This document shows, piece after piece, positions 4,810 through 33,436 of a stretch of 35,530 bases of DNA (position 1 is the first letter of the stretch; each line of letters begins with the position of its first letter). This DNA is from Dokdonia sp. (GTDB lineage Bacteria > Bacteroidota > Bacteroidia > Flavobacteriales > Flavobacteriaceae), in contig JAHDEV010000013.1 in the NCBI GenBank assembly GCA_020628615.1, positions 1 through 35,530 on the forward strand, given 5' to 3'. The position numbers and the translations under genes were made by a program. Below the pieces are notes generated by a model. The model was not told the DNA's origin, made no database searches, and worked only from the letters and a program-made list of their open reading frames with translations.

Positions 4810-4812
4810 TAT

Positions 4813-5979
4813 ATGGCATTTGAGGTGCTCCTCCCTATTCCAGATCTTGCGCTTGCACATATACAGCTGCAGCATCACCAGTCACTAGGTAATAATATAA
4901 GGCTGCACAGCGAGCAAGAAGGACTGCCAGATTTAGAAGGAGTAGCTATAGCTATAGTTTGCTTACGCGAAAAAAGAAGAGACCCCAATAATCTTTCAGA
5001 CGGGCTCTCCTTTACCGAAGTGCGCCGAACATTTTATGAACTGTTTCCCGGAAACTGGCACACTACCATTGCAGATCTAGGAGATATAGACGCTGGTGCA
5101 TCTGTAGATGATACATACTTTGCCATACGCACTCTCAACGAGTCTTTGTTTAAAAAAGGAATCATACCTATTTATATAGGAGGAAGTCAAGATCTTGTGT
5201 ATCCTATTTATCGTTCTTACGATAAACTAGATCAAATGGTTAATATCGTTAATGTTGATAGTCGTTTTGACCTAGGAGACGCAAGTCAGCCTATAAACAA
5301 CAAGTCTTACGTAGGTAAAATCATAGTCACAGAGCCTTATAATTTATTTAATTACTCAAATATTGGGTATCAAACTTATTTTAATCCTCAAGAGGAAATA
5401 GATTTGATGGATAAGTTGTATTTTGACTCCTATAGACTAGGTAATGTTTCGGCAGCGATGAACATTACAGAACCTGTTATGCGTGATGCAGATCTTGTTG
5501 CTATAGATCTTAATGCGATACGTAGTAGTGAGTTGAGTACTAGGCATAATAAAATGCCTAATGGTTTTGATGGGAAAGAGATTTGTACCATTGCAAGATA
5601 TGCAGGGATTAGTGACCGTGTAAGTTCTTTTGGAATTTTTGAATATCAAAATGATGCTCAAGAAGAAAAAGCGGCAATGCTCGTTGCACAGATGATGTGG
5701 TACTTTATAGAGGGAGTGAATTTTCGCGCAAGCGAAAATATGGATATAGAAAAAGGTAATTTTCTTACCTACCAAGTACCCATTGAAGATGAGGTGCTTA
5801 CATTTTATAAGAGTGAAAAAACAGCTCGCTGGTGGATTGAAATTCCATTTATTATGGGCTTGAATAATAAATTAAAAAGGCACACGTTATTACCTTGCAC
5901 GTACCAAGATTATCTGGATGCTTGTAACCAAAACATACCTGAACGCTGGTTCAAAGCAAGGAAGAAAAACGAAATTTGA
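4813..5979 (+). CDS. Arginase/agmatinase/formimidoylglutamase family protein
   Basis: 388 aa; ureohydrolase-like motifs (IYIGGSQDLVYP, NVDSRFDLGD, DLVAIDLNAIRSSE). The metal ligands look atypical, so it may be a divergent member. Confidence 0.75.
   Translation: MAFEVLLPIPDLALAHIQLQHHQSLGNNIRLHSEQEGLPDLEGVAIAIVCLREKRRDPNNLSDGLSFTEVRRTFYELFPGNWHTTIADLGDIDAGASVDDTYFAIRTLNESLFKKGIIPIYIGGSQDLVYPIYRSYDKLDQMVNIVNVDSRFDLGDASQPINNKSYVGKIIVTEPYNLFNYSNIGYQTYFNPQEEIDLMDKLYFDSYRLGNVSAAMNITEPVMRDADLVAIDLNAIRSSELSTRHNKMPNGFDGKEICTIARYAGISDRVSSFGIFEYQNDAQEEKAAMLVAQMMWYFIEGVNFRASENMDIEKGNFLTYQVPIEDEVLTFYKSEKTARWWIEIPFIMGLNNKLKRHTLLPCTYQDYLDACNQNIPERWFKARKKNEI
5720..5739. repeat. Diverged palindrome look-alike: ATTTTCGC-GCAA-GCGAAAAT hairpin inside the arginase-family CDS
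   Basis: 8-bp stem with GCAA tetraloop; relation to the family is uncertain. Confidence 0.4.
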
Positions 5980-6087
5980 ATATGTGTTTCAACGATGAAA
6001 TGATTATTTTTGGCGAATAAATTGTTTATTACAAATAAAATAAATAGGTTTACGCCCTTAACTTTAGAATACTTAACCTAATATCCT

Positions 6088-7458
6088 ATGAAAAAGTATA
6101 TTGCATTTATTGCGATAGTAGCTTTGCTGTCTAGTTGTGGCAAAGGCGATCGTGGAGAACTCGTTGGTGCCAAAGGCAAGCGATGGAATCCCGAAAAACC
6201 ATTTGGTATGACTCTCGTTTCTGGAGGGGCATATATAATGGGTAAAAGTGATGATGACTTTGCTGCGGTAAATGATGCTCCTACTAAAACTGTTACTGTT
6301 CGTTCTTTTTATATGGATGAAACAGAAATCACAAACGCCGAATATAGACAGTTTGTAGAGTGGGTAAAAGATTCTACTGTACGTACTAAACTTGCTATAC
6401 TGGCAGATGAGCTTGGGGAAACTCCAGGAAGTGGTGGTATAGGTGACTTTGCATTTAATGATGCAGATCCTGCAAATATGACTCCATACGAGCAATATAT
6501 GTACGATAACTATTATGGCTTAGGTGAGACTGGATTTGAAGGACGTAAACTTAATAAGGATATAGATATCATATGGGATACAGACCAGTATCCAGATGAG
6601 TACTATGCTGAGGTGATGGATACAATGTACATCCCACTAGAAGAAGCTTATAATGGACAGCGCACCATAGACGTAGATAAGCTTAACTTCCGTTACACAT
6701 ACTTAGACATACAAGCTGCTGCAAAGAAGAATGGTGGTCGTCGTAAAGATCATATTAAGACAGAGGTGGTTCCGGTTTACCCTGATACGACTGTATGGAT
6801 TAAGGATTTTGCATACTCGTATAATGAGCCTATGCATAATGATTACTTCTGGCACGATGCTTATGGTGAGTACCCTGTTGTAGGTGTTACCTGGATGCAA
6901 GCAAAAGCTTTTTGTGAGTGGAGAACAATGTATAAGAACTCTTACCAAAAATCAAAAAAGAGACAATTTGTAAATCGTTTTAGACTTCCAGGTGAAGCAG
7001 AGTGGGAATATGCTGCTCGTGGCGGACTGGAAAGTGGTGATTACCCTTGGGGTGGGCCGTATGCTAAAAACGATAGAGGATGTTTCCTTGCAAACTTTAA
7101 ACCTTTAAGAGGAGATTATGGTGCAGACCAAGCATTATATACTGTAGAAGCAGATGCTTACGAACCTAACGACTATAACCTGTACAATATGGCAGGTAAC
7201 GTGTCTGAGTGGGTAGCTTCTTCTTATGATCCAGCTTCTTATGAATATATGTCTACTATTAACCCTAACGTAAACGATAAGGATAACCGTCGTAAAGTTA
7301 TACGTGGTGGTTCTTGGAAAGACGTTGCTTACTTCCTACAGGTAAGCTCACGTGATTATGAGTATCAAGACTCTGCACGTAGTTATATCGGTTTTAGAAC
7401 CGTACAGGATTTTATGGGAATTGATGAGAAAATCAACCTTAGAAAACCGAAGAAATAA
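6088..7458 (+). CDS. gldK: Gliding motility / T9SS lipoprotein GldK (FGE-sulfatase fold)
   Basis: Lipobox LLSSCGKG; formylglycine-generating-enzyme-like motifs (EWEYAARGG, YNMAGNVSEWVASS, VIRGGSW, IGFRTV); followed by gldL, gldM and gldN. Confidence 0.95.
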   Translation: MKKYIAFIAIVALLSSCGKGDRGELVGAKGKRWNPEKPFGMTLVSGGAYIMGKSDDDFAAVNDAPTKTVTVRSFYMDETEITNAEYRQFVEWVKDSTVRTKLAILADELGETPGSGGIGDFAFNDADPANMTPYEQYMYDNYYGLGETGFEGRKLNKDIDIIWDTDQYPDEYYAEVMDTMYIPLEEAYNGQRTIDVDKLNFRYTYLDIQAAAKKNGGRRKDHIKTEVVPVYPDTTVWIKDFAYSYNEPMHNDYFWHDAYGEYPVVGVTWMQAKAFCEWRTMYKNSYQKSKKRQFVNRFRLPGEAEWEYAARGGLESGDYPWGGPYAKNDRGCFLANFKPLRGDYGADQALYTVEADAYEPNDYNLYNMAGNVSEWVASSYDPASYEYMSTINPNVNDKDNRRKVIRGGSWKDVAYFLQVSSRDYEYQDSARSYIGFRTVQDFMGIDEKINLRKPKK

Positions 7459-7536
7459 CTAATATTATTTACCCAAATTATATTATTCAATTACTTAACT
7501 AAATTAACTTAACTAAACTAAAAAATTTTATTAGTC

Positions 7537-8172
7537 ATGGCAAAATCTAAAACTGGAAAGAAATTAATGAATATGGTCTACGGACTAGGAGCAGCAGTTG
7601 TAATTATTGGTGCTTTATTTAAAATTATGCACTGGCCATATGGTAACCTAATGCTTATTATTGGTCTTATTACAGAGGCAGTAGTATTCGCAATTTCTGC
7701 ATTTGAACCAGTAGATGACGAACTTGATTGGGCTCTAGTATATCCAGAACTAGCAGGCGGGGCAAGTGGATCTAAGAAAAAAGCTGCAGCTCCTGTAGAT
7801 GCAGAAGCACAATTATCAAAAAAACTAGACGATATGCTTAAAGAGGCAAAAATTGATGGTGAGTTGATGAGCAGCTTAGGAAACAGCATACGTAATTTTG
7901 AAGGTGCAGCAAAAGGAATTGCTCCTACAACAGATGCAATGGCTTCTACAAAAAAATACTCTGAAGAGATGGCACTTGCTGCTGCTCAAATGGAATCTTT
8001 AAATAGCCTTTATAAAGTGCAAGTTGAGTCTTCTAGTCGTCAGGCAGAAATCAATGAGCAAGTAACTGCAAACGCAGGAAAACTTAAAGAGCAAATGGAA
8101 AGTCTTGCAACAAACCTTTCTTCACTGAATGGTGTGTATGGAGGAATGCTTTCTGCTATGAATAAAAACTAA
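7537..8172 (+). CDS. gldL: T9SS/gliding motor protein GldL
   Basis: 211 aa; two N-terminal TM helices with KIMHWPYGNLMLIIGL; position between gldK and gldM. Confidence 0.95.
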   Translation: MAKSKTGKKLMNMVYGLGAAVVIIGALFKIMHWPYGNLMLIIGLITEAVVFAISAFEPVDDELDWALVYPELAGGASGSKKKAAAPVDAEAQLSKKLDDMLKEAKIDGELMSSLGNSIRNFEGAAKGIAPTTDAMASTKKYSEEMALAAAQMESLNSLYKVQVESSSRQAEINEQVTANAGKLKEQMESLATNLSSLNGVYGGMLSAMNKN

Positions 8173-8220
8173 TTCTAGTTGTTTTTACAATTAACTAACT
8201 AACAGCTAAAATTAAAAACA

Positions 8221-9771
8221 ATGGCAGGAGGAAAACAAAGCCCAAGGCAGAAGATGATTAACCTGATGTATCTAGTGTTTATAGCGATGCTAGCACTTAA
8301 TATGTCTAAGGAGGTACTATCGGCTTTTGGGTCGATAAATGAAAAATTTGATCGTTCTAACACAACTTTTGAAGCAAAAAATAATCTAGCACTAGCAGAT
8401 TTATCTAAAAAAGCAAACGAAAACGAAGAGTTTAAGGCAGCTGCAGCAACAGCTCAGTCTGCAAAGCAACTTGGAGATGCATACTTTACTTATTTAGCTT
8501 CAGAAAAAGACGCATTACTTGCGGGTGTTGAAGATAAGACTGATTATGAAGCGATGGATAAGTCTAACTTCTTAGATGAGCGCTTTTATAAAGGTGGAAA
8601 AATCACTCCACAAGGACAGAAGTTTCTTGATGAAATGGCTAAGTACCGTGATGGTATGGTAAAGCTGGCAGGTGATAATAAAGCGCTAGTTGCCCAAATT
8701 AATGAAGATTTTAGTACTAGTGATGTAGTAGATGGAGAAGGAGTAAAGAAAGATTATATCTCTTACAATTTTGTAGGTTTCCCTTCAGTATCTTCATTAA
8801 CTAAGATGTCTCAATTACAAAATGATATCAAGGTTGTAGAAAACGAGCTTTTAACAAAGCTACTTTCTGGAAACTTAAAAGAACTAGCTTCTTTAGATAA
8901 CTACGAGACGGTAATGACTACCTCAAAAGGAGCTTATTATACTGGGTCAACCTTTGATGGTGTTCTTTCTTTAGGTCGTGTAGATGCTTCTACAAAACCT
9001 TCTAGAGTTGAGCTTAAGCTTGATGGGCGTCCTATACCTTCAGATAAAATTTCTTATGATGGTGGTAAACTTGTATTAGGAGTTAATACTGGTGGCGTAG
9101 GTGATCACAAAATCACAGGTACATTGTTTTATCCACAAGACGGTAAAGAAATAGAGGTTGCTGTAGAGCAAGCTTTTACAACAATAAACAAACCTAACTC
9201 TGCAACCATCGCTGCAGATAAGATGAATGTTGTATACCGTGGTGTAGATAACCCTATGACGATATCATTTGCCGGTGTTGCAGATAATGCTGTCACAGCA
9301 TCTGGAGCAGGTCTTTCTAAAAGATCAGGAAGCAAGTATAATATGAAACCTTCACAAGGTAGAGAGGTGACAATTAATGTGACTGCAAAGTTACCAGACG
9401 GTGGTGGTACAGTTTCTGACAAGGCTGTTTTCCGTATTAAAGATATCCCACGTCCAGTAGGAGCTTTAGGAGGAGATGATGGAGGTAACCTTAAGAAACC
9501 TCGTAACACAGTATCTGCAGCTCCTATTAATGCAGTGCTTCCAGATTTTGACTTTGACCTAAACTTAAGAGTTAATAGTTTCAAGTTTAGAGCTGGTGAC
9601 CAAGCAACGGTAGCTGTACAAGGAAACAAGCTTAATGCTGCTGCAAAGTCTGCTCTTAAGAGAGCAAAGAGAGGATCTTCAGTACAGATATTTGATATTA
9701 AAGCAAGTATACCAGGTAACTCTATAAGATTGAAGACAGTGTCTCCAATTATTATTGAGTTATCAAACTAA
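8221..9771 (+). CDS. gldM: T9SS/gliding motor protein GldM
   Basis: 516 aa; MAGGKQSPRQKMINLMYLVFIAMLALNMSKEVLSAFG N-terminus characteristic of GldM. Confidence 0.97.
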   Translation: MAGGKQSPRQKMINLMYLVFIAMLALNMSKEVLSAFGSINEKFDRSNTTFEAKNNLALADLSKKANENEEFKAAAATAQSAKQLGDAYFTYLASEKDALLAGVEDKTDYEAMDKSNFLDERFYKGGKITPQGQKFLDEMAKYRDGMVKLAGDNKALVAQINEDFSTSDVVDGEGVKKDYISYNFVGFPSVSSLTKMSQLQNDIKVVENELLTKLLSGNLKELASLDNYETVMTTSKGAYYTGSTFDGVLSLGRVDASTKPSRVELKLDGRPIPSDKISYDGGKLVLGVNTGGVGDHKITGTLFYPQDGKEIEVAVEQAFTTINKPNSATIAADKMNVVYRGVDNPMTISFAGVADNAVTASGAGLSKRSGSKYNMKPSQGREVTINVTAKLPDGGGTVSDKAVFRIKDIPRPVGALGGDDGGNLKKPRNTVSAAPINAVLPDFDFDLNLRVNSFKFRAGDQATVAVQGNKLNAAAKSALKRAKRGSSVQIFDIKASIPGNSIRLKTVSPIIIELSN

Positions 9772-10786: not shown

Positions 10787-11845
10787 GTGAGTAAAATAGA
10801 TTATATAATAGTAGGTTTAGGTCTTGCTGGTATTGCTTTTTGTGAGCAATGTCTAGCCGCAGGTAAGACTTTTATGGTGTTTGATAAGGGCGTAGAAGGT
10901 GCCAGTAGGGTAGCCGCCGGTCTTTATAATCCTGTGATTTTAAAACGATACTCCCTCCCTTGGAAAGCTGTATCGCAGTTTGACCTAGCGATTCCGTATT
11001 TTCAAAAACTTGAGGCAAAGCTAGATGCCCAATTTATGCATCCTATGCCCGTGAGGAAGGTCTTTCACTCTATAGAAGATCAAAATAATTGGTTTGCTGC
11101 TAGTGATAAGCAGGGGCTCGAGCGTTTTGTAAAAACACCACTCATAAAAAACGAAAATAAGGGTATACAAGCACCTTATGATTATGGTGAAGTACTAGAG
11201 ACCGGTCGCGTAGACATTAAGACCTTACAGCACGCTTATGAAAATTACCTTAAGGAGATGTCCGCTTTCGCGAAAGCGGAATTCAACTACGCACAGCTCA
11301 CACTAACAGATGCTGGAGTAAAGTATCAAGATTATGAAGCGTCTCACATAATTTTTGCCGAAGGATATGGTATCAAGCAGAACCCTTACTTTAACAAATT
11401 GCCCCTTGTAGGAAACAAAGGTGAGTATATTATTATAAAAGCGCCAAAATTAAAGCTTACTGCCGCCATCAAAACCTCTTTTTTTATTGTCCCACTAGGT
11501 GAGGATTTATACAAAGTGGGTGCAACTTATAACTGGACAGATAAGGACTGGGAAAGCACGCAGGTAGCCCGCGAGGAGCTAGAGTCTAAGTTTGCTGCTT
11601 TAGTAAATACACCATATGAGGTGGTAGGTCAAGAGGCGGGTGTACGCCCTACTACAGGAGATAGAAGGCCACTATTAGGAGTGCATCCTACATATAAACA
11701 GCTCGCTGTGCTCAATGGCTTAGGTACGCGCGGGATAATGGCGGGACCACTGCTGGCACACTATCTATTTGAATTTATAGAAAAGAATATTCCGCTTCCA
11801 GAGGAGGTAGATATAATGAGATTTCCCAAAAAGCTGGAGATCTAG
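10787..11845 (+). CDS. FAD-dependent oxidoreductase (DAO/DadA-like)
   Basis: Rossmann motif DYIIVGLGLAGIAFCEQ; GTRGIMAGPLLAHYL C-terminal FAD motif. GTG start at 10787 preferred over the tracked TTG at 10769. Confidence 0.8.
   Translation: MSKIDYIIVGLGLAGIAFCEQCLAAGKTFMVFDKGVEGASRVAAGLYNPVILKRYSLPWKAVSQFDLAIPYFQKLEAKLDAQFMHPMPVRKVFHSIEDQNNWFAASDKQGLERFVKTPLIKNENKGIQAPYDYGEVLETGRVDIKTLQHAYENYLKEMSAFAKAEFNYAQLTLTDAGVKYQDYEASHIIFAEGYGIKQNPYFNKLPLVGNKGEYIIIKAPKLKLTAAIKTSFFIVPLGEDLYKVGATYNWTDKDWESTQVAREELESKFAALVNTPYEVVGQEAGVRPTTGDRRPLLGVHPTYKQLAVLNGLGTRGIMAGPLLAHYLFEFIEKNIPLPEEVDIMRFPKKLEI
11261..11280. repeat. Palindrome copy 3 (TCCGCTTTCGCGAAAGCGGA, 20 bp perfect, inside a CDS)
   Basis: Reads SAFAKAE in the FAD oxidoreductase. 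Confidence 0.93.
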
Positions 11846-11868: not shown

Positions 11869-11884
11869 CGCTTTCGCGAAAGCG
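11869..11884. repeat. Palindrome copy 4 (CGCTTTCGCGAAAGCG)
   Basis: Between two convergent stop codons. Confidence 0.93.
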
Positions 11885-11889
11885 TAAAC

Positions 11890-12285
11890 TTACTTACTCA
11901 CAAGTTGATCTTTACTCGGGTCATATTTCATAAAAAAGTTAATCCATATGTTGCGTGCTAGTCGCATTATAACCGGCATAAAAACAACCAGTGTGCCTAC
12001 GATGGCAATAAAAGTATTTACCAGGTTTGCTTCAAAAAAGAAATAGGTAATCACAAAAGCGGCTGTGGCAAATGCTATGCCTACGGGATAACTTACATAC
12101 ATTGCTCCATAAAAGAAAGAAGGTTCTATCTTATATTTTGTGCCGCAGTGAGAGCAACGCTCGTGCATTTTGAGCGTCTCAGTTAAGATGTAGGGATTTG
12201 AGTTTATATACATAGACTCATTCTGGCATACTGGGCATTTACCAGTAAGAATGCTGTTGAGTTTTGTACCTTTTAGAATTCCCAT
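11890..12285 (-). CDS. DUF983 family small membrane protein
   Basis: 131 aa; two CxxC pairs (CPVCQN, CSHCG) plus two TM helices. Confidence 0.75.
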   Translation of the reverse strand: MGILKGTKLNSILTGKCPVCQNESMYINSNPYILTETLKMHERCSHCGTKYKIEPSFFYGAMYVSYPVGIAFATAAFVITYFFFEANLVNTFIAIVGTLVVFMPVIMRLARNIWINFFMKYDPSKDQLVSK

Positions 12286-12368: not shown

Positions 12369-14279
12369 ATGCTTAATATTCACAACCTTTCTGTCTCTTT
12401 TCAAGGCGAATATTTGTTTGAAGAAATCACCTTTAGACTTAATAATGGTGATCGAGTAGGGCTTGTGGGTAAAAACGGTGCTGGTAAGTCTACAATGCTG
12501 CGTATCATTTCTGGCGAGCAGCAGTATGATACGGGATCTATAGCTATTGAGAAGGAGATAAGCATAGGTTTCTTAAAGCAAGATATAGATTTTATAGAAG
12601 GCCGCACGGTGCTTGAGGAGTCTTATGAGGCTTTTAAAGAAATTAAAAAACTAGAGAGTCAACTTGCTCATATTAATGAGCAACTAGCGACACGTACAGA
12701 CTACGAGAGTGAGAGCTATAACCAGCTTATGATAGATATAAACGACGTGCAACACCAGTATGAAGTACACGGCGGTTATAGTTATAAAGGTGAGACAGAA
12801 CGTATATTACAAGGTCTAGGTTTTAAGCGTGAAGATTTTGATAAGCTTACAGATACCTTTTCTGGAGGGTGGCGTATGCGTATTGAGCTAGCTAAACTTT
12901 TACTACAAAATCACGATATACTACTGCTGGATGAGCCTACAAACCACTTAGATATAGAGTCTATTATATGGCTTGAGAGTTTCTTGCGAGGGTATACTGG
13001 AGCTGTAGTGATTGTATCTCACGATAAAATGTTTCTCGACAATGTGACTAACCGTACTATAGAGATTTCGCTAGGTCGCATTTATGATTACCCGAAGCCG
13101 TATACGCAGTACCTTGTGCTTCGTTCGGAAATAAGAGAGCAGCAACTGGCTTCACAAAAAAACCAGCAGAAGCAAATTGAGCAGACAGAAAAGCTTATTG
13201 AAAAGTTTAGAGCAAAAGCCTCAAAGGCTACAATGGCGCAGTCACTCATAAAAAAGTTAGATAAGATAGACCGCATTGAGGTAGATGAAGATGATAATAG
13301 TGTGATGACGCTTAAATTTCCTGTATCTGTCACACCTGGTAAGGTTGTGGTAGAGGCAGAGGAGGTTGCAAAAAGCTATGGAGATAAAAACGTTTTACAA
13401 GGTATAGACTTGCTGGTAGAGCGTGATACTAAAACCGCCTTTGTAGGGCAAAATGGTCAAGGTAAATCTACGCTGGCAAAAATTATAGTAGGAGAGCTCG
13501 AGCACCAAGGGAAGGTGAAGCTGGGTCACAATGTACAAATAGGTTATTTTGCTCAAAACCAAGCCGAATACCTTGACGGGTCAAAAACTGTGGAGGAAAC
13601 GATGATAGATGCCGCAGATGAGAAAACAAGACCACGTGTGCGAGACATATTAGGCTCTTTTCTCTTTAGGGGAGAGGAGGTAGATAAGTATGTGCGTGTA
13701 CTCTCTGGAGGTGAGCGCAACAGGCTAGCCCTTGCTAAGCTTATGCTGCAACCCTTTAACGTGCTTGTGATGGATGAGCCTACAAATCACCTAGACATAA
13801 AATCAAAAAATGTACTTAAAGATAGTCTCAAACAGTTTGAAGGGACTCTTATAGTCGTATCTCACGACCGTGATTTTCTACAAGGTCTTACAGATAGGGT
13901 TTATGAGTTTAAAGATCATCGCATAAGAGAGTATCTGGGAGACATAGATTACTACCTAGAGCAGCGAGAAGTGACAAACTTGAGAGAGGTAGAAAAGCGT
14001 GATGTTGTAAAAAAAGAGGCGCCCGTAAAGAGCACAAAGAAGTCTTACGAAGATCAAAAAAAGCTCAAATCTCTTAATAATAGACTCAGTAAAGTAGAGT
14101 CTAATATTAATAAAATAGAACGCGAGATCAAGGAGCTAGACGTTGCCCTGGCGACTAATTATGATGAGACAGTTGCAGACCTAAGTTTTTTTGATATCTA
14201 CAATGGCAAGAAAAAGAAGCTAGACGGCTTTATGGAAGATTGGGAGAAAATCACAGAAGAGCTCGATGCGTTAAACTAG
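12369..14279 (+). CDS. ABC-F family ATPase
   Basis: 636 aa; two Walker A motifs (GKNGAGKST, GQNGQGKST), signature sequences, LLLDEPTNHLD / VMDEPTNHLD, no TM segment, C-terminal coiled coil. Confidence 0.93.
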   Translation: MLNIHNLSVSFQGEYLFEEITFRLNNGDRVGLVGKNGAGKSTMLRIISGEQQYDTGSIAIEKEISIGFLKQDIDFIEGRTVLEESYEAFKEIKKLESQLAHINEQLATRTDYESESYNQLMIDINDVQHQYEVHGGYSYKGETERILQGLGFKREDFDKLTDTFSGGWRMRIELAKLLLQNHDILLLDEPTNHLDIESIIWLESFLRGYTGAVVIVSHDKMFLDNVTNRTIEISLGRIYDYPKPYTQYLVLRSEIREQQLASQKNQQKQIEQTEKLIEKFRAKASKATMAQSLIKKLDKIDRIEVDEDDNSVMTLKFPVSVTPGKVVVEAEEVAKSYGDKNVLQGIDLLVERDTKTAFVGQNGQGKSTLAKIIVGELEHQGKVKLGHNVQIGYFAQNQAEYLDGSKTVEETMIDAADEKTRPRVRDILGSFLFRGEEVDKYVRVLSGGERNRLALAKLMLQPFNVLVMDEPTNHLDIKSKNVLKDSLKQFEGTLIVVSHDRDFLQGLTDRVYEFKDHRIREYLGDIDYYLEQREVTNLREVEKRDVVKKEAPVKSTKKSYEDQKKLKSLNNRLSKVESNINKIEREIKELDVALATNYDETVADLSFFDIYNGKKKKLDGFMEDWEKITEELDALN

Positions 14280-14284
14280 TATTT

Positions 14285-14306
14285 TTACGCTTTCGCGAAA
14301 GCGTAA
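14285..14306. repeat. Palindrome copy 5 (TTACGCTTTCGCGAAAGCGTAA, 22 bp perfect)
   Basis: Begins 6 bp after the ABC-F stop codon. Confidence 0.95.
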
Positions 14307-18888: not shown

Positions 18889-19569
18889 ATGAATTTGTAT
18901 AAAAATCATACACCGCGAGAAATTGTTGCCGTGCTAGAGCATAGCGATAAGCTTACTTATGAAGCAAAGCTCAACTTGTTAGATACTATTAGAAATAAAT
19001 CTATAGATGTTTCTACAGAAAAGCTGGAAGAGCAAATCGCACACAAAGAAGTGGCCATCGCAAATCTTGAAAACCTTGAAGAGCTAGGTTTTCATTATGA
19101 AGAAAACACAACCACAGGAGAGATTATAGTAAAGCGCACCTCAAAAGCCAAAATTATGGATGTCATATCCATAGTACTAGGTGTATTGCTATCACTTGTA
19201 GGGCTTATAGCCTTCTGGCTTCTCGTTGCAATTTTTACAGGCGATAATGAGTTTGGACTGGATAAGTTATTCATATACGTGCTTATGATTACTGCTGGAC
19301 TTGTAGGTTTTAAAATGTTATCAGGTATAGAACGTTTTTTAGATTTTAATAATTTTTTGCTTACTAAATCTGGAGATGAGATAACTATAAAAAAAGGAGG
19401 GCTATCTGGAGCTCAAACTTACCATAGTACCCAGCTCGGGATTGATGAGGAAGAAGGAGAGCTCGTTTTTCATATAGATAATATTGAGTTCATAAGGGCA
19501 AATCAAGACAACCTAGTGCAAAGACGTACGCTAGAAACATTATTACTTAAAATGACTGCAAACAGATGA
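18889..19569 (+). CDS. Uncharacterised two-TM membrane protein in the RND operon
   Basis: 226 aa, one nt after the permease stop and overlapping tolC by 4 nt (ATGA); two central hydrophobic helices. Confidence 0.75.
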   Translation: MNLYKNHTPREIVAVLEHSDKLTYEAKLNLLDTIRNKSIDVSTEKLEEQIAHKEVAIANLENLEELGFHYEENTTTGEIIVKRTSKAKIMDVISIVLGVLLSLVGLIAFWLLVAIFTGDNEFGLDKLFIYVLMITAGLVGFKMLSGIERFLDFNNFLLTKSGDEITIKKGGLSGAQTYHSTQLGIDEEEGELVFHIDNIEFIRANQDNLVQRRTLETLLLKMTANR

Positions 19570-20903
19570 AAAAATCTTTTATAAAAAGTATAGTTGCTAT
19601 GGTATTGTTTTTTGCTTTCGCGAAAGCGTATGCACAAGACCTCCCGGCACAATTGCTCACAAAAGAAGAAGCCGTGCAGATAATGCTTGAAAATAATTTT
19701 GGGATACTACTGGCAAATAATCAAGTCGCCATAGCCGAAAACAATAAAAATATCTTGAATAGTGGCTACTTGCCATCTCTCACCGGTAATGCTGGAGTAA
19801 ATTATAGTATAGATGATCAAGAGGCTACCTTTCAAGATGGTAATGTAAGCGCCGTAGATGGGGCAGAGACCACAAGATATAACGCATCTATTAACCTTAA
19901 CTATACCTTGTTTGATGGGTTAGGTAGGTACTATAATTATAAAACATTAAAAGAGCAGTATGGCTTATCGCAGCTGCAAGCACGAGAGACCATAGAGAAT
20001 GTAATGCTGCAGCTCTTCTCTGTGTATTATGAGGTGGCTCGTATTGAAGAAAACTTAGCTGTTTTAGAAACTGCTTTAGATATTTCAAAAGCGAGAGAGG
20101 TACGTGCACAATATCAATTTGATTATGGCCAAGTAAATAAGTTAGAGGTGCTCAATGCACAAGTAGATATTGTTACAGACAGCACAAACATTCTTACTAC
20201 CAGGCAGCAGCTACGTAATGCACAACGAGACCTTAACGTGGTTCTTGCTAGAGAACTAGAAGATTTAAAAAGTGCAGATACTACCGTCACTTTCATAAAC
20301 CCGCTAGAAGTAGAGCGATTTATAAATGAGGGTATTACAAATAATGTATCTATACTTCAAGCAGAGCAAAATATTACCATAAGTAATTATCAAATTAAAC
20401 AAGCTAAATCTTTGCTTTTACCTACCATAGGTCTTACAGGTAGTTACGGGTGGACAGAGGGTAACTTTCCTGCTACAAATTTTCTTGCCTCTAGCACCTC
20501 TACAGGTTTTCAAACAGGTGCAACCCTACAGTGGAATCTCTTTGACGGAGGTAGCTCTATCATAGGAGTAAAAAACGCAAAAATCTTTTTAGAAAATCAA
20601 AAGTATACCCAAGAGCAATTAAGGCAGCAGGTACTGGGAGACATTGCAAATGCAAAGGGTGATTATCTCAATGCACTTAAAATCTATGAGCTTCAAGAGC
20701 AAAATGTAAGCACAAGCCAGGCTAACTTTGATCGATCAGAAGAGCGATTTAAGCTAGGGCAGGTAAGTAGCGTAGAGTTTAGACAGGCACAACTTAACTT
20801 GCTCAATGCACAAACCACTAAGAATGCCGCAAAGTATACGGCAAAGCTGGCAGAAATACAGTTGCTACAGCTCACGGGGCAACTCCTTAATGTGAAGTTG
20901 TAG
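19566..20903 (+). CDS. TolC-family outer-membrane efflux protein
   Basis: 445 aa; signal peptide, duplicated TolC helical repeats (LEVLNAQVDIVTD, FRQAQLNLLNAQ). Confidence 0.93.
   Translation: MKKSFIKSIVAMVLFFAFAKAYAQDLPAQLLTKEEAVQIMLENNFGILLANNQVAIAENNKNILNSGYLPSLTGNAGVNYSIDDQEATFQDGNVSAVDGAETTRYNASINLNYTLFDGLGRYYNYKTLKEQYGLSQLQARETIENVMLQLFSVYYEVARIEENLAVLETALDISKAREVRAQYQFDYGQVNKLEVLNAQVDIVTDSTNILTTRQQLRNAQRDLNVVLARELEDLKSADTTVTFINPLEVERFINEGITNNVSILQAEQNITISNYQIKQAKSLLLPTIGLTGSYGWTEGNFPATNFLASSTSTGFQTGATLQWNLFDGGSSIIGVKNAKIFLENQKYTQEQLRQQVLGDIANAKGDYLNALKIYELQEQNVSTSQANFDRSEERFKLGQVSSVEFRQAQLNLLNAQTTKNAAKYTAKLAEIQLLQLTGQLLNVKL
19614..19627. repeat. Palindrome copy 6 (GCTTTCGCGAAAGC) inside the tolC signal peptide
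   Basis: Reads FFAFAKAYAQ. Confidence 0.93.
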
Positions 20904-20913
20904 GAGGTAATTC

Positions 20914-20929
20914 CGCTTTCGCGAAAGCG
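20914..20929. repeat. Palindrome copy 7 (CGCTTTCGCGAAAGCG)
   Basis: 11 bp after the tolC stop. Confidence 0.93.
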
Positions 20930-22209: not shown

Positions 22210-22671
22210 ATGCAGCCAGATAATTTTACAAATGAGTTTTTTGGGATAGGAATCCAGAATGGAAAAACTCCAGAAAACTTAGGAGTGCTCTGGCGTTCTG
22301 CTCAAAACTTAGGAGCCAGTTTTATCTTTACCATAGGCAACCGCTATGCAAAGCAAGCTAGTGATACACACAATGCTGTAAGTGCGATGCCTTATTATCA
22401 CTATGATAATTTTGATGACTTTTTTAATCATTTACCTAAAGGAGCACGTATTGTGGGCGTAGAGCTAGATGAGCGTGCACAACCGCTAGAAACTTTTGAA
22501 CACCCTAGGCGCTGTGTTTATTTACTAGGAGCAGAAGATCACGGCCTTACACGTGAGGCAATAGATAGATCTCATTTTCTTGTAAAGTTCTCTTCTACCC
22601 TAAGCCTTAATGTTGCAGTGGCTGGGAGCATCGTGTTATATGACAGAGCCCTGGCAAAACCTAGATCGTAA
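22210..22671 (+). CDS. SpoU/TrmH-family RNA methyltransferase
   Basis: 153 aa; NLGVLWRSAQNLGAS, YLLGAEDHGLTREAI, LSLNVAVAGSIVLYD. Confidence 0.88.
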   Translation: MQPDNFTNEFFGIGIQNGKTPENLGVLWRSAQNLGASFIFTIGNRYAKQASDTHNAVSAMPYYHYDNFDDFFNHLPKGARIVGVELDERAQPLETFEHPRRCVYLLGAEDHGLTREAIDRSHFLVKFSSTLSLNVAVAGSIVLYDRALAKPRS

Positions 22672-22675
22672 TTAG

Positions 22676-22695
22676 TACGCTTTCGCGAAAGCGTA
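22676..22695. repeat. Palindrome copy 8 (TACGCTTTCGCGAAAGCGTA)
   Basis: 5 bp after the SpoU stop. Confidence 0.95.
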
Positions 22696-23685: not shown

Positions 23686-23705
23686 TACGCTTTCGCGAAA
23701 GCGTA
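23686..23705. repeat. Palindrome copy 9 (TACGCTTTCGCGAAAGCGTA)
   Basis: 7 bp after the era stop. Confidence 0.95.
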
Positions 23706-25040: not shown

Positions 25041-25715
25041 ATGTACGCAATTGTAGAGATAGCAGGGCAGCAATTTAAAGTTGCAAAAGACCAAAAAGTC
25101 TTTGTTAACCGCCTATCTACCGAAGAAGGAAAAAAAGTCGATTTCGACAAAGTACTTTTGGTAGGAGACGGATCTAACATCACTTTAGGCGCCCCAGCTA
25201 TAGACGGAGCTCTAGTAGGAGCAAAAGTCTTAAGACACCTTAAGGGTGACAAAGTAATCGTTTTCAAGAAGAAAAGACGTAAAGGATACCGTGTAAAAAA
25301 CGGACACCGCCAGTCACTTACTGAAATCGTAATTGAAAGTATCGCTACTTCTGGAGCTAAGAAAGCTGCTCCAAAAAAAGAAGCAAAAGCAGAGCCTAAA
25401 GCTGCTGCTCCTGCAAAGGAAGCTGCACCAAAGGCAGAAGCAAAAAAGGCTGCTCCTAAAAAAGCTGCCAAAGCTGACGATCTTAAAAAAGTGGAAGGTA
25501 TCGGACCAAAAATCGCATCAACTCTTGTTGAGGCTGGTATTGATACATTTGCAAAACTTGCAAAAACTGACGCTGCTAAGATTTCTGAAATCATCGCAGG
25601 TGTACGTGGAAACCACGTAACTGACACATGGCCAGCACAAGCACAAATGGCTGCAGATGGTAAGTGGGATGAGCTTAAGAAATGGCAAGACGAATTAGAC
25701 GGTGGTAAAGCTTAA
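25041..25715 (+). CDS. rplU: 50S ribosomal protein L21 with Ala/Lys/Pro linker and helix-hairpin-helix-like C-terminal domain
   Basis: N-terminal ~105 aa is L21 (MYAIVEIAGQQFKVAKDQ...KKKRRKGYRVKNGHRQSLTEI); C-terminus DDLKKVEGIGPKIASTLVEAGIDTFAKLAKTDAAKI is HhH-like. Confidence 0.95.
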   Translation: MYAIVEIAGQQFKVAKDQKVFVNRLSTEEGKKVDFDKVLLVGDGSNITLGAPAIDGALVGAKVLRHLKGDKVIVFKKKRRKGYRVKNGHRQSLTEIVIESIATSGAKKAAPKKEAKAEPKAAAPAKEAAPKAEAKKAAPKKAAKADDLKKVEGIGPKIASTLVEAGIDTFAKLAKTDAAKISEIIAGVRGNHVTDTWPAQAQMAADGKWDELKKWQDELDGGKA

Positions 25716-26702: not shown

Positions 26703-27407
26703 TTAGTTTACCTTGATTTTATCTGTACCTAGATAGCCATCATTTTTATTGTAGTACCAGGCTCTGTCTTTAGGCATTTTTATACCTCCTATGGTAGCAA
26801 TATCAGAAAGCAGTATGTACTCACCTGTAGTCTCATCATCACCCTTAAAAAATTGATATACCTCCATTGCATATGTCTCTGGGTCAAAATAAAACTGCCA
26901 CACATCTGTGCCTACATTTTTATCATAGCGCACACGTGCTACTAGATATTCTTTTCCTTTGAAGGTGTCCTTTTTAACATCCTTCTCGATAATAGTTCCC
27001 TTATCTGTGAGCTTCATAGGTAAACCATAGAGGTATGAGTAATAATTTCTGAACATTACAGTGCGTTCACAATCCGCATCTGCAGTGGTGCTTGTTACGA
27101 CCTCTCCAGCTTTGTTTGTGTGTTTGCAAGCAGTGCCTAGAAGCTCTCTAAAGCTTGTTTTGCCATCTTGTGTTGTTGTTACATTAAAGTACTCTCTAGG
27201 TAAATCTAGTGTGATTACACTTTTGCGATCTGGTTTGTCTGGCATATCAAGTACGAGTGTAAACTCTCCAGTAAAGGTCGCCCAGTTGCTATTTGGGTCG
27301 TGATAGGCTATAGATTTTGCCACGAGCTCTGGTCCAGTTAATTGTTGTGAGTACGCTTTCGCGAAAGCGCAACAAAATAAAACAGCAATAAGCGTGTAGT
27401 TTTTCAT
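26703..27407 (-). CDS. Secreted protein, outer-membrane lipoprotein-sorting/DUF6503-like
   Basis: MKNYTLIAVLFCCAFAKAYSQ signal peptide from ATG at 27405-27407; ...YFDPETYAMEVYQF..KMPKDRAWYYN. The signal peptide contains the palindrome. Confidence 0.65.
   Translation of the reverse strand: MKNYTLIAVLFCCAFAKAYSQQLTGPELVAKSIAYHDPNSNWATFTGEFTLVLDMPDKPDRKSVITLDLPREYFNVTTTQDGKTSFRELLGTACKHTNKAGEVVTSTTADADCERTVMFRNYYSYLYGLPMKLTDKGTIIEKDVKKDTFKGKEYLVARVRYDKNVGTDVWQFYFDPETYAMEVYQFFKGDDETTGEYILLSDIATIGGIKMPKDRAWYYNKNDGYLGTDKIKVN
27354..27369. repeat. Palindrome copy 10 (CGCTTTCGCGAAAGCG) in the signal peptide of the minus-strand gene
   Basis: Reads CCAFAKAYSQ. Confidence 0.93.
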
Positions 27408-28111: not shown

Positions 28112-29632
28112 TTATTGCTCACTTATAAAAGTTTCAAACTGGGCAAACTTTTCTTCATCCATTACTTTTTCCATCTTTACCTGGCCACCTTTTTTCTTAT
28201 TTGCGCCACTCCACTCGTGAAAGATATTTGGGTCTATAGTAGTCACCTTTACACCTTTTAGGGATTTACCTCTGGCTACACCATAATTTTTATTGGCATT
28301 TTTAAGAGATTCATCAAGAGCTTGAGCAAGATCTGTCTCGCTAGTGGTGGCTGTTGTTCCTAAATACCAGCAGTGGTAAAACTCACCGTCTATTTTTTTT
28401 GCACTTAGTGTAAACTCAGGTATTTTAATATCAAACTTTTCTTCTAGATCTCTTAGCGCATCTTCCATTTTATTTACAGAAAGTTGTGAGCCTACAACGT
28501 TAAGGAAGAATTTTGTGCGCCCCGTGATTTTAATTTCGGCTCTCTCTACATCTGTAAATGCTACGGTGTCGCCTATGAGATATCTCCACGCTCCAGAGAC
28601 GGTACTTATGATAAGTACATAGTCTACCCCTGTCTCTACTTCGTTAAGTGTAAGAGCAGGTGCATCTTGTGAGAGCGAGCCATCTTCATTAATATATTCA
28701 GGTTTAAACGGTACAAATTCAAAATAAACGCCGGCATCTGTACTGAGCTTCATAGATGCTGTTTCTGGTCTACTCTGGTATGCCATAAAACCTTCGGAGG
28801 CTAGGTAAGTGTCTATAATGGTAATGTCTCGACCTAGTAGCTGTCTAAAGCTTTTCTCATAGGGTTGAAAAGCTACACCTCCACTGGTAAAGACCTGCAG
28901 GTTAGGCCAGATGTCGTGTATGTTGTCTACATTATGGTAGGCTATTACTTCCTTGAGCATAAGCTCCATCCAAGATGGGATACCACTTAAGGCTCCTATA
29001 TCCCAAGATTTTGCATTTTCTGCGATGGTTTTAACACGCTCATCCCAGTTGTCTATTTTTGCTATTTCTTCTCCAGGTTTATAAAAACCTTTAAACCAGA
29101 AGGGGATATTGCTAGCTGTGATACCGCTTATTTCTCCTTCAAGAAACTCGTCATTTTTGGTGAGGTCTGTAGAGCTACCTAGTGCCATAACTTCTTTGTC
29201 AAAAAAGTCTGTAGGTAACTCATAATGTGCCAGCGCAGATACTTGTGCGATACTAGTCGTTCTTATGGCTGCTACCATATCTTCGGTTACAGGTATGCGT
29301 TTACTAGTTTTACCTGTAGTCCCACTTGATAATGCAAAATAGTGTGGCTTACCAGGCCAGGTGATATTTTCTAGACCATCCTTAATGCGTTTCCACCACA
29401 TATCATTCATCTGGTTATAATCGTGGTAGGGTATTGCTTTTCTGTAAGCCTCGCCCACATTATCTTCTTCTAGAATTTTTGAAAAGCCATAATAGATGCC
29501 AAAAGAGGTATCCTTTGCTGTGTCGAGCATTGTACGCAAGACATTCTCTTGCTCTTCAACTGGGTTTGAGCTTGTGGTGAGTGTGTCTTTAAGATCAATT
29601 GCACCTTTTATAATAGAACCTAGAATAGCCAT
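28112..29632 (-). CDS. GH3-family (auxin-responsive-promoter-like) acyl-adenylating protein
   Basis: 506 aa; FALSSGTTGKTSKRIPVT, TYLASEGFMAYQS, YLIGDTVAFTDVERAEIKITGRTKFFLNVVGSQLS. Confidence 0.88.
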   Translation of the reverse strand: MAILGSIIKGAIDLKDTLTTSSNPVEEQENVLRTMLDTAKDTSFGIYYGFSKILEEDNVGEAYRKAIPYHDYNQMNDMWWKRIKDGLENITWPGKPHYFALSSGTTGKTSKRIPVTEDMVAAIRTTSIAQVSALAHYELPTDFFDKEVMALGSSTDLTKNDEFLEGEISGITASNIPFWFKGFYKPGEEIAKIDNWDERVKTIAENAKSWDIGALSGIPSWMELMLKEVIAYHNVDNIHDIWPNLQVFTSGGVAFQPYEKSFRQLLGRDITIIDTYLASEGFMAYQSRPETASMKLSTDAGVYFEFVPFKPEYINEDGSLSQDAPALTLNEVETGVDYVLIISTVSGAWRYLIGDTVAFTDVERAEIKITGRTKFFLNVVGSQLSVNKMEDALRDLEEKFDIKIPEFTLSAKKIDGEFYHCWYLGTTATTSETDLAQALDESLKNANKNYGVARGKSLKGVKVTTIDPNIFHEWSGANKKKGGQVKMEKVMDEEKFAQFETFISEQ

Positions 29633-29742: not shown

Positions 29743-29764
29743 TTACGCTTTCGCGAAAGCGTAA
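29743..29764. repeat. Palindrome copy 11 (TTACGCTTTCGCGAAAGCGTAA, 22 bp perfect)
   Basis: Intergenic between the retropepsin-like gene end and the GH3 start. Confidence 0.95.
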
Positions 29765-29788: not shown

Positions 29789-30376
29789 TTACTTGAGGTA
29801 TAAGCAGTTGTATTGATAATCTATAATGCCTTTGCCGGCATTTAAAACATCTGCACCCAGAATACCGTGTACTGGCGCTGCATTGTGAGCAATTAGTGCG
29901 GTGTTTACGTGTGACATATCAAAGAGTACAATGTCAAGTTTTTTGTACTGCCACTTCTGAATTTTTAAAAAGTTATTGCGAGAGAGTTTGGTCTCCATAC
30001 CTGTTGCTCCGGCCCCTGCGGCTAGCACCTCACTATCTTCTTGCAGTAAGCCAAAAAGGTCTGCGTAGCTAAAATCTATACAAGAACTAGAGGCGCCTGT
30101 GTCTAGTATAAAAGACCCTTCTACACCATTAATTTTTGCCTTTATCTCGAGGTGATTTGTTACGGTAGGAAACAGGCGTGAGCGACAATAACCTTTTGAT
30201 AGTAAAAACTCGCGTAGTGAGGGCATAGGGTATGTGATTTCTATCAAAAGTAATACAATCGTTTTTACACTGTGTGGTAACCAAATGATTTTTGAAAAAA
30301 GAAGCAAAATCATTTTACTTCTTCTTGTAGCAAAGTATTTTTGTGATCTATGACTTTTACAGATACACATACCCAT
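29789..30376 (-). CDS. Retropepsin-like aspartic protease domain protein
   Basis: GSFILDTGASSSCIDFSYADLFG with ILGADVL. The true start is probably internal, since the tracked ORF overlaps the divergent tatD start. Confidence 0.7.
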   Translation of the reverse strand: MGMCICKSHRSQKYFATRRSKMILLLFSKIIWLPHSVKTIVLLLIEITYPMPSLREFLLSKGYCRSRLFPTVTNHLEIKAKINGVEGSFILDTGASSSCIDFSYADLFGLLQEDSEVLAAGAGATGMETKLSRNNFLKIQKWQYKKLDIVLFDMSHVNTALIAHNAAPVHGILGADVLNAGKGIIDYQYNCLYLK

Positions 30377-31172: not shown

Positions 31173-32318
31173 TTGTGGAGACCAATATATACCCAATTGA
31201 ACAACTACGACCATATACGCCCATACCACGACCAGGAGGTAAATGAGGCGCTTTTAAGAGCCGCCAGACACCCTATGTTTAGAGTGTTGTTGCAATTTAC
31301 ATTTCCAGATTTATCGCAAGAGCAAATTTTAGAAGTCCTTAAAACGTGTCACTCTATTGCAGATTTTCAAGAGAAGGTGATTTATAAGTCTGTAAGTAAC
31401 CTACTTGATAAAAGCTCAGAAGGATTTACTCAAAGTGGTTTTAGTGCGCTTTCGCGAAAGCGGTCTTACCTCTATTTATCAAATCATCGTGATATTGTAC
31501 TAGATACGTCATTGCTCAATATGACTCTTATAGACCATAATCTTATCACCACAGCATCTGCCATAGGTGATAATCTGGTTCAGAAAGATTTCTTAATGGA
31601 GTTGTCTAAGCTCAATAGAAACTTTTTAGTCTTAAGAGATCAGTCGCCTAGGGAGTTGCTTATGAGTTCTAAACTGCTGTCTAATTACATTAAATTTTTA
31701 TTACAGTCTCATAGATCTGTATGGGTAGCACAGCGAGAGGGAAGAACAAAAGACGGTCTCGATAAAACACAGCAGGGAGTTCTTAAAATGATTACTATGG
31801 CTCGTGGTAAGACGCCACTTATGACTTACCTGCGAGAGTTGAGCGTCATAGGTGTGGCAATATCTTATGAGTATGACCCTACAGATATATTAAAGGTGCC
31901 AGAGATTGTTGCAAAAAGAGAAAACCTGCCTTATATAAAAACAGCAAATGAAGATTTTAACAGCATACTTAAGGGAGCGCTAGGTAATAAACGTAACATT
32001 CACATCGCAGCATCGCCGTTACCAGAAAAGGTGTATGATGATATTGAAGATAAATATGATAGTGACAATGAAAAGTTACAGGCCTTTGCTAGTGAATTAG
32101 ATAAAGTAATCTGGAAGAATTATAAACTCTGGCCTACAAACTACATCGCTTATGATCTCTATCATAAAACAGATAAGTATAAGGACAAATATGATACTAA
32201 GGAACTGCGTCATTTTGAACGTAGACTAGAAGTACGTGTTGATTTATCTAAGCAAATGGAAGTAGACAGTTTCTTGTTAATGTATGCAAACCCCGTATTG
32301 CAAGCCGAAAAGTTATGA
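31173..32318 (+). CDS. 1-acyl-glycerol-3-phosphate acyltransferase-like (PlsC-like) protein
   Basis: YLSNHRDIVLDTSLLN (NHxxxxD-type motif), WVAQREGRTKDG; TTG start. Confidence 0.75.
   Translation: MWRPIYTQLNNYDHIRPYHDQEVNEALLRAARHPMFRVLLQFTFPDLSQEQILEVLKTCHSIADFQEKVIYKSVSNLLDKSSEGFTQSGFSALSRKRSYLYLSNHRDIVLDTSLLNMTLIDHNLITTASAIGDNLVQKDFLMELSKLNRNFLVLRDQSPRELLMSSKLLSNYIKFLLQSHRSVWVAQREGRTKDGLDKTQQGVLKMITMARGKTPLMTYLRELSVIGVAISYEYDPTDILKVPEIVAKRENLPYIKTANEDFNSILKGALGNKRNIHIAASPLPEKVYDDIEDKYDSDNEKLQAFASELDKVIWKNYKLWPTNYIAYDLYHKTDKYKDKYDTKELRHFERRLEVRVDLSKQMEVDSFLLMYANPVLQAEKL
31447..31462. repeat. Palindrome copy 12 (CGCTTTCGCGAAAGCG) inside the acyltransferase CDS
   Basis: Reads SALSRKRSY. Confidence 0.93.
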
Positions 32319-33337
32319 GTAAAGCAAAGATCCTTTTAATATATACTGGTGGTACCATAGGTATGATTAAAGACTATGAGACGGGAGCACTCAAAGCCTT
32401 TGATTTTGATGAGCTACTAGATAAAATACCAGAGCTACGGTTGCTGGATTGTGAGATAAGCACTGCCTCTTTTGAGACCGTGATAGACTCGTCTAATATG
32501 AATCCTGCATACTGGAATCAATTATGTGATTTTATAGAGCAGGGTTATGATACATATGATGGTTTTGTGGTATTGCACGGGAGTGACACGATGAGTTATA
32601 GTGCATCTGCAGTGAGTTTTATGCTAGAGAATTTAAGTAAACCTGTGGTATTTACAGGTTCGCAGTTGCCCATAGGAGACCTGCGCACAGATGCAAAAGA
32701 GAATCTTATAACGGCCGTACAAGTAGCTGCCTTAAGAAAAAGGAATAAACCACTCATAGCCGAAGTGTGCTTGTATTTTGAGTATAAGCTTTACAGGGCA
32801 AATCGTACCTCAAAAATTAGTGCAGAAAATTTTGAAGCCTTCACTTCGCCTAACCATCCGGAGCTTTTAACCTCAGGTGTGCATCTCACAATTAATGAAG
32901 ACGCCCTCTGGAAACCAAATAAAAAGCAACTCAAAGTCCATAAAAAACTAGTTACAGAAGTCTTACTCCTTAAAATATATCCAGGTATCTCACAATGTCT
33001 TGTAGAGGCAATGCTCAATGTGCCTTGCGTGCGAGGTGTGGTATTAGAAACTTTTGGAGCAGGTAATACTACAACAGAGCAGTGGTTTATAGATGCACTT
33101 AAGGCAACTATAAAAAGGGGAGTGCCTGTAGTAAATGTCACACAATGTATCTCAGGCAGTGTTCATATGGGTAATTATGAAACCAGCGTCGCCCTTAAAA
33201 AAATGGGAGTTATTAACGGAAGCGATATCACCTCTGAAGCCGCAATAGCAAAAATGATGTACCTCTTAGGGCAAAATTTAGGGCCTAAAGTTTTCAAAAC
33301 AGTTTTTGAAACATCACTGCGTGGTGAGATGTCATAA
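32315..33337 (+). CDS. Type I asparaginase
   Basis: KILLIYTGGTIGMI, VVLHGSDTMSYSASAVSFML, FTGSQLPIGDLRTDAKENLI; 4-nt overlap with the upstream gene. Confidence 0.93.
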   Translation: MSKAKILLIYTGGTIGMIKDYETGALKAFDFDELLDKIPELRLLDCEISTASFETVIDSSNMNPAYWNQLCDFIEQGYDTYDGFVVLHGSDTMSYSASAVSFMLENLSKPVVFTGSQLPIGDLRTDAKENLITAVQVAALRKRNKPLIAEVCLYFEYKLYRANRTSKISAENFEAFTSPNHPELLTSGVHLTINEDALWKPNKKQLKVHKKLVTEVLLLKIYPGISQCLVEAMLNVPCVRGVVLETFGAGNTTTEQWFIDALKATIKRGVPVVNVTQCISGSVHMGNYETSVALKKMGVINGSDITSEAAIAKMMYLLGQNLGPKVFKTVFETSLRGEMS

Positions 33338-33372: not shown

Positions 33373-33417
33373 TGTTAATTCGCATTCCTTAATATATAGC
33401 GATTGTTTTTAGTACGC

Positions 33418-33427
33418 TTTCGCGAAA
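33418..33427. repeat. Palindrome copy 13 (core TTTCGCGAAA with intact left arm, lost right arm)
   Basis: agtacgcTTTCGCGAAAattaata, just upstream of tRNA-Ser. Confidence 0.85.
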
Positions 33428-33436
33428 ATTAATAAT

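Follow-up and report, generated by a model that had tools for sequence, protein, structure and literature searches.

To our knowledge, few iterated genomic motifs have a known function, Chi and the uptake signals being such cases, and HIP1 is not yet among them. The uptake sequences of Haemophilus (USS) and Neisseria (DUS) are not palindromes, and they occupy non-coding DNA and tolerant coding DNA (PMC1939737), with a bias toward gene ends in the Pasteurellaceae (PMC2346458). Karlin et al., whose work is cited in PMC1939737, reported uptake sequences to be evenly spaced; PMC1939737 itself argues that their spacing is too uneven for a role in compaction. The HIPs of cyanobacteria, including HIP1, are short lineage-specific palindromes that are iterated within and between genes, typically at 1000–2000 per Mb (PMC4390886). 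The motif that we describe here from Dokdonia works like a HIP or an uptake signal; it is longer and rarer than the HIPs and, unlike USS and DUS, palindromic, and we claim membership in neither class.

The window is a stretch of 35,530 nucleotides on contig C243 of the source genome, a fragmented assembly of 2.7 Mb. A check of the window sequence reads the palindrome CGCTTTCGCGAAAGCG exactly at positions 27354–27369. It lies in the signal peptide of a gene for a secreted DUF6503 protein (gene call at 26703–27407, minus strand; Pfam PF20113, E=1.2e-51), whose ATG is at 27407–27405 and whose N-terminus is MKNYTLIAVLFCCAFAKAYSQQ; the palindrome lies in codons 14–18 and is read on the minus strand in the frame that gives AFAKA. 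The protein is 96% identical to one from an uncultured Dokdonia. An outer-membrane efflux protein (OEP) gene on the plus strand (19566–20903, PF02321), with the N-terminus MKKSFIKSIVAMVLFFAFAKAYAQ, holds another exact copy in its signal peptide (19614–19627), where the identical 14-mer encodes AFAKAY. Both N-termini resemble signal peptides by a simple heuristic, which was used for all signal-peptide calls here. The preliminary description had placed the same palindrome in the signal peptides of two unrelated genes and had attributed their common AFAKAY segment to the DNA repeat. Both statements hold.

In total, the window contains 12 exact copies of the 14-mer, and 16 places match with at most three mismatches compared to 1.3 expected from shuffled sequences. 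Exact copies are found in intergenic DNA downstream of the minus-strand gene 111–965 (58–71), between the convergent genes 10787–11845 and 11890–12285 (11870–11883) and between the genes 28112–29632 and 29789–30226 (29747–29760). Others come right after a stop codon: that of the ABC-F-like gene 12369–14279 (14289–14302), that of the OEP gene (20915–20928) and the stops at 22671 (22679–22692) and 23679 (23689–23702). Within genes, a copy in the AFAKA frame lies in the DAO oxidoreductase gene 10787–11845 (11264–11277), and a copy in the LSRK frame lies in gene 31275–32318 (31448–31461) and is kept in locus L009 and genome G306. Among the inexact places, GATTTCGCGAAAGC (2146–2159) has one mismatch and lies between divergent genes, with an exact match in genome G301 at the corresponding spacing, and GCTTTCGCGAAAAT (33416–33429) is a one-armed copy in the intergenic region after gene 32315–33337.

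Across the source genome we counted 737 exact copies, or about 270 per Mb, compared to none for the reversed control. Chance is thus excluded, both by this difference and by the excess in the window over the shuffles. All 18 Dokdonia species are rich in the palindrome (369–905 exact copies). Among 301 genomes of the family, the only rich ones are Dokdonia, the two genomes of g11 (578 and 664 copies) and g193 (408), and none of 396 genomes across the phylum is rich except the source Dokdonia. Richness is hence confined to these three groups among the approximately 700 Bacteroidota screened in total, and the restriction to a few related genera is shared with USS and DUS. The group g11 is probably Nonlabens, as judged from a named Nonlabens locus that contains two copies in 8 kb. 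In the sister genera, no iterated palindromic 'dialects' were seen in loci of 5–12 kb, which are too small as samples. We found no report of the motif in Flavobacteria in the literature searched, whose coverage leaves out most subscription journals.

The repeated unit has the core GCTTTCGCGAAAGC and the extended form TACGCTTTCGCGAAAGCGTA; conservation spans approximately 16–20 bp, and the flanks beyond are merely AT-rich. Two-fold symmetry is perfect in most copies and includes a TA..TA extension. In the G000 sample, one-mismatch copies are scarce (8 compared to 111 exact copies), which points to unusually strict maintenance. The copies with two mismatches include a recurrent class, since 63 of 91 lack one outer dinucleotide and represent a one-armed 12-bp form. 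The motif differs from USS and DUS in being a perfect palindrome, in its greater length (14–20 bp), in its few one-mismatch copies and in its occurrence in Bacteroidota. The directionality of the non-palindromic USS and DUS is a descriptive trait of the known examples and not of function, and one-armed 12-bp copies occur here.

The same data bear on a HIP-type explanation, by which an orphan methyltransferase would read part of the palindrome, for instance TCGCGA or CGCG, and the site, once methylated, would serve repair or regulation. The phenotype resembles that of HIP1 as a highly iterated, lineage-specific palindrome within and between genes (PMC4390886). However, the over-represented unit is 14–16 bp long, and 111 of the 152 occurrences of TCGCGA in the G000 sample fall inside it. 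The motif is also longer than the HIPs (14–20 compared to approximately 8 bp) and about four to seven times rarer per Mb, and its hosts are Flavobacteriaceae. We consider this explanation unlikely.

Gene-level statistics were obtained from samples of approximately 404 kb (G000), 400 kb each (G208 and G306) and 800 kb (G301), with genes called by a purpose-made hexamer-based caller. In the G000 sample, 53 copies are genic and 58 intergenic, compared to 55 and 35 in the G208 sample. The genic share is thus 48–61%, and the density per base is 6–13 times higher in intergenic DNA. Genic copies are read in the frames AFAKA, LSRK and RFRES at ratios of 30:16:7 (G000) and 33:14:8 (G208). Hundreds of exact copies, enrichment in intergenic and tolerant coding DNA and a preferred frame are all features of USS and DUS, and even spacing has been reported for USS. 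Here, the coefficient of variation of the spacing is 0.57–0.73, compared to about 1.0 in a null model that preserves the gene map, and only 1–4 neighbours are less than 1 kb apart where 19–32 are expected under that null. Along the G301 chromosome, tiles of 20 kb contain 3–9 copies each (variance/mean 0.52), with no gap, cluster or bias toward origin or terminus among the tiles. In this assembly of one contig, a second OEP match and a second TopA match, degraded and interrupted by many stops, lie near the contig end (C1:3290723–3293186); the two ends appear to overlap in a low-quality duplicated end.

Even spacing and symmetry are also what a chromosome-organising site would show, that is, a site bound about every 4 kb by a dimeric cytoplasmic protein (nucleoid-associated, loading SMC or topoisomerase, or similar) and kept by direct selection. 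The perfect two-fold symmetry with its TA..TA extension, the avoidance of close pairs, the uniform cover of the whole chromosome, the very strict exactness and the conservation of orthologous places all agree with such a protein. Like parS, Noc-binding sites and matS, the motif is palindromic, resembles a protein-binding site and is about 14–16 bp long; in contrast to these, its copies number in the hundreds and are spread evenly round the chromosome (G301) with neither concentration nor gap. Against this explanation stand the lack of a candidate protein, the absence of a positional bias that would point to a role at origin or terminus, the one-armed copies that are frequent among the variants, and the gain and loss of single sites between species, which suggests that each is dispensable. 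Given the symmetry and the even spacing, we regard a chromosome-organising site as a serious if doubtful possibility, nearly as likely as an uptake signal.

Many copies lie 6–30 nt past stop codons, especially in G000, and as RNA the palindrome can fold, as would an intrinsic transcription terminator or another RNA hairpin. Yet a T-run follows only 4% of the post-stop copies compared to 14% of random intergenic positions, half of the copies are genic, and convergent gaps are not enriched in G208. A terminator is therefore a very improbable explanation.

Within genes, copies occur more often than expected where a signal peptide or a hydrophobic N-terminal segment is predicted. The four genome samples gave 4, 5, 8 and 6 such copies compared to 1.2, 1.3, 1.9 and 1.2 expected (P=0.034, 0.01, 0.0006 and 0.0012), an enrichment of roughly fourfold that is approximate, as the predictor is heuristic and the samples overlap in some orthologues. 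Of the 23 signal-peptide copies, 22 are in the AFAKA frame. Signal peptidase I favours small residues, which the AFAKA frame fits. The AFAKA reading would suit a hydrophobic core and cleavage region of the AxA type, so that the palindrome would be tolerated in signal peptides. The preliminary description had gone further and suggested selection at the cleavage junction, to be checked by locating the copies in the three frames. The check bore out an enrichment in signal peptides and a preference for the AFAKA frame, but only about 10% of the in-gene copies are there. With the other roughly 90% elsewhere in genes, intergenic DNA 6–13 times denser and two further frames in use, selection at the junction as such is not supported. 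As the main driver of the repeat, selection for an AFAKA peptide is refuted by the intergenic copies and by near-invariant codons: although 256 spellings of AFAKA are possible, 114 of 124 such peptides across the samples use that of the palindrome. Many orthologous signal peptides, moreover, are without the palindrome. The fourfold enrichment is what speaks for this driver, and we give it hardly any credence. For a palindrome that is maintained as DNA, signal peptides seem to be a permissive place and not a target.

Conservation of the sites points in the same direction. When G301 or G000 was compared to G306, the 14-mer was exact at 7 of 10 and 9 of 11 alignable places, where 0.1–0.2 would be expected, and the flanks of these places were 72–74% identical; some of the inexact places are palindromes shifted by the alignment. 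The OEP site lies within the signal peptide and is exact in 18 of 20 genomes, which represent three genera, at protein identities of 55–99%. Eight of the 17 other Dokdonia have the DUF6503 site (G315, G301, G310, G306, G304, G303, G313 and G307), and it is absent from the remaining nine and from both Nonlabens-like genomes. Near-invariant codons, exact aligned sites amid flanks of about 72% identity and even spacing together argue for selection or drive on the DNA rather than on signal peptides.

We also compared Dokdonia orthologues with and without a site. Of 19 such alignments, 12 are gapless near the site, with replacements such as AFAKA/AMHKA and RFRES/EIGDS, or with LSRKL retained in other codons; gaps occur in seven, some of which join distant paralogues. 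Recurrent insertion, as put forward in the preliminary description, is not supported, since the sites are old and stay exact from genus to genus, and site-free orthologues are mostly gapless. The case that the palindrome did not spread by insertion is strong but not complete. It bears on the possibility that the palindrome is a mobile element of the REP/REPIN kind, which a RAYT transposase would copy and which would insert repeatedly, including into signal peptides. REP/REPIN elements resemble the motif in being palindromic and present in hundreds of copies. In contrast to them, most carriers of the palindrome are without a RAYT (Y1_Tnp is absent from eight of nine Dokdonia tested and from g193), no conserved unit extends past approximately 20 bp, about half of the evenly spaced copies are genic, and site-free orthologues mostly show in-register replacement. 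A mobile element is thus largely refuted, and we think it most improbable. A phage origin was considered and rejected, with only 41 stretches found in 2.9 million viral contigs.

We conclude with high confidence that the palindrome is a maintained recognition site for which signal peptides are a permissive place. A sequence-specific trans-acting factor would keep it exact and evenly spaced. The most likely such factor would be a DNA-uptake system for self-recognition: fragments that bear the palindrome would be preferentially taken up and recombined, and the palindrome would accumulate by drive wherever proteins tolerate copies, as do USS and DUS in Pasteurellaceae and Neisseriaceae. We favour uptake because the placement in tolerant DNA, the frame bias, the bias toward gene ends and signal peptides, and the spacing resemble what has been reported for USS and DUS, and because Riemerella columbina, a species that the authors of that study place in the Flavobacteriaceae, favours its own over competing DNA (PMC7965970). 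Counted against uptake are the palindromic form and greater length by which the motif departs from USS and DUS, the strict maintenance seen in the scarcity of one-mismatch copies and the symmetry and even spacing, which fit a dimeric chromosomal DNA-binding protein too. ComEC is encoded in all 19 genomes tested, including palindrome-free relatives, so that its presence does not discriminate. In the literature searched, we found no report of natural transformation in Dokdonia or Nonlabens. Taken as a whole, a lineage-specific iterated recognition site with a trans-acting factor, permissive signal peptides and an uptake system as that factor is a tentative proposal, to which we would give somewhat less than an even chance. 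If the palindrome is an uptake signal, sequence-specific natural transformation would extend to Bacteroidota, and the motif could guide genetic tools for Dokdonia.

On a TopA tree, the rich genomes require three changes, or a single gain followed by intervening losses is possible. The sister of g193 on this tree is g147 (genome G146), which has nine exact copies and 86 places with at most two mismatches compared to 20 in the control; these near-copies are apparent relics of a decayed set. In g193, there are 732 such places compared to 48 in the control, with 408 exact, so that its set is half decayed. Other relatives tested are near the control level, with a modest excess in g78 (38 compared to 15). 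The pattern in g147 and g193 indicates that the palindromes appear to decay once something is lost, presumably a trans-acting reader that g147 would no longer have. An exact and even palindrome of 14–20 bp together with a decaying sister lineage offers a natural experiment for finding its reader, and the relics in g147 are useful for tracing a reader that was lost.

In few-copy genomes of other genera, the palindrome lies inside heavy-metal resistance genes that encode RND pumps, OEP, P-type ATPases and multicopper oxidases (loci L069–L075, L077–L079 and L082 in genomes G079, G088, G217, G102, G203, G012, G112 and G177). One OEP gene of these genomes contains a conserved pair of copies 933 bp apart, and the transferred genes carry the palindrome in AFAKAQ signal peptides as well. 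These copies trace the transfer of genes from one genus to another, and the palindrome is thus a marker of gene flow that is already visible in the metal-resistance islands of other genera. A parS-like origin cluster was considered for the 933-bp pairs and rejected, as the copies sit within the transferred genes. A wider proposal is that Dokdonia, Nonlabens and a third marine genus of Flavobacteriaceae share a palindromic signal for recognition of self-DNA, the first described for Bacteroidota, which would have shaped their proteomes (AFAKA signal peptides), was lost and is decaying in g147 and has left its trail in exported metal-resistance genes; we regard this as conceivable, with about one chance in three.

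A few contigs in the viral collection contain at least three copies in 24–37 kb: L149, L166, L169 (IMGVR_UViG_3300040781_000495), L134, L150 and L157. They may derive from palindrome-rich bacteria, either as host DNA or as prophages. In the window, TopA lies near gliding and T9SS genes (2284–9771) that encode an FGE-sulfatase-domain protein, a GldK/J-like protein and GldM. The distance between TopA and OEP in G192 and G244 is approximately 15–17 kb, the same as in the window. Lys/Ala-rich repeats of the KKAPAKKK type, with a composition like that of histone H1, occur in the C-terminal part of TopA (4713–4800) and at 25340–25475 in gene 25041–25715.
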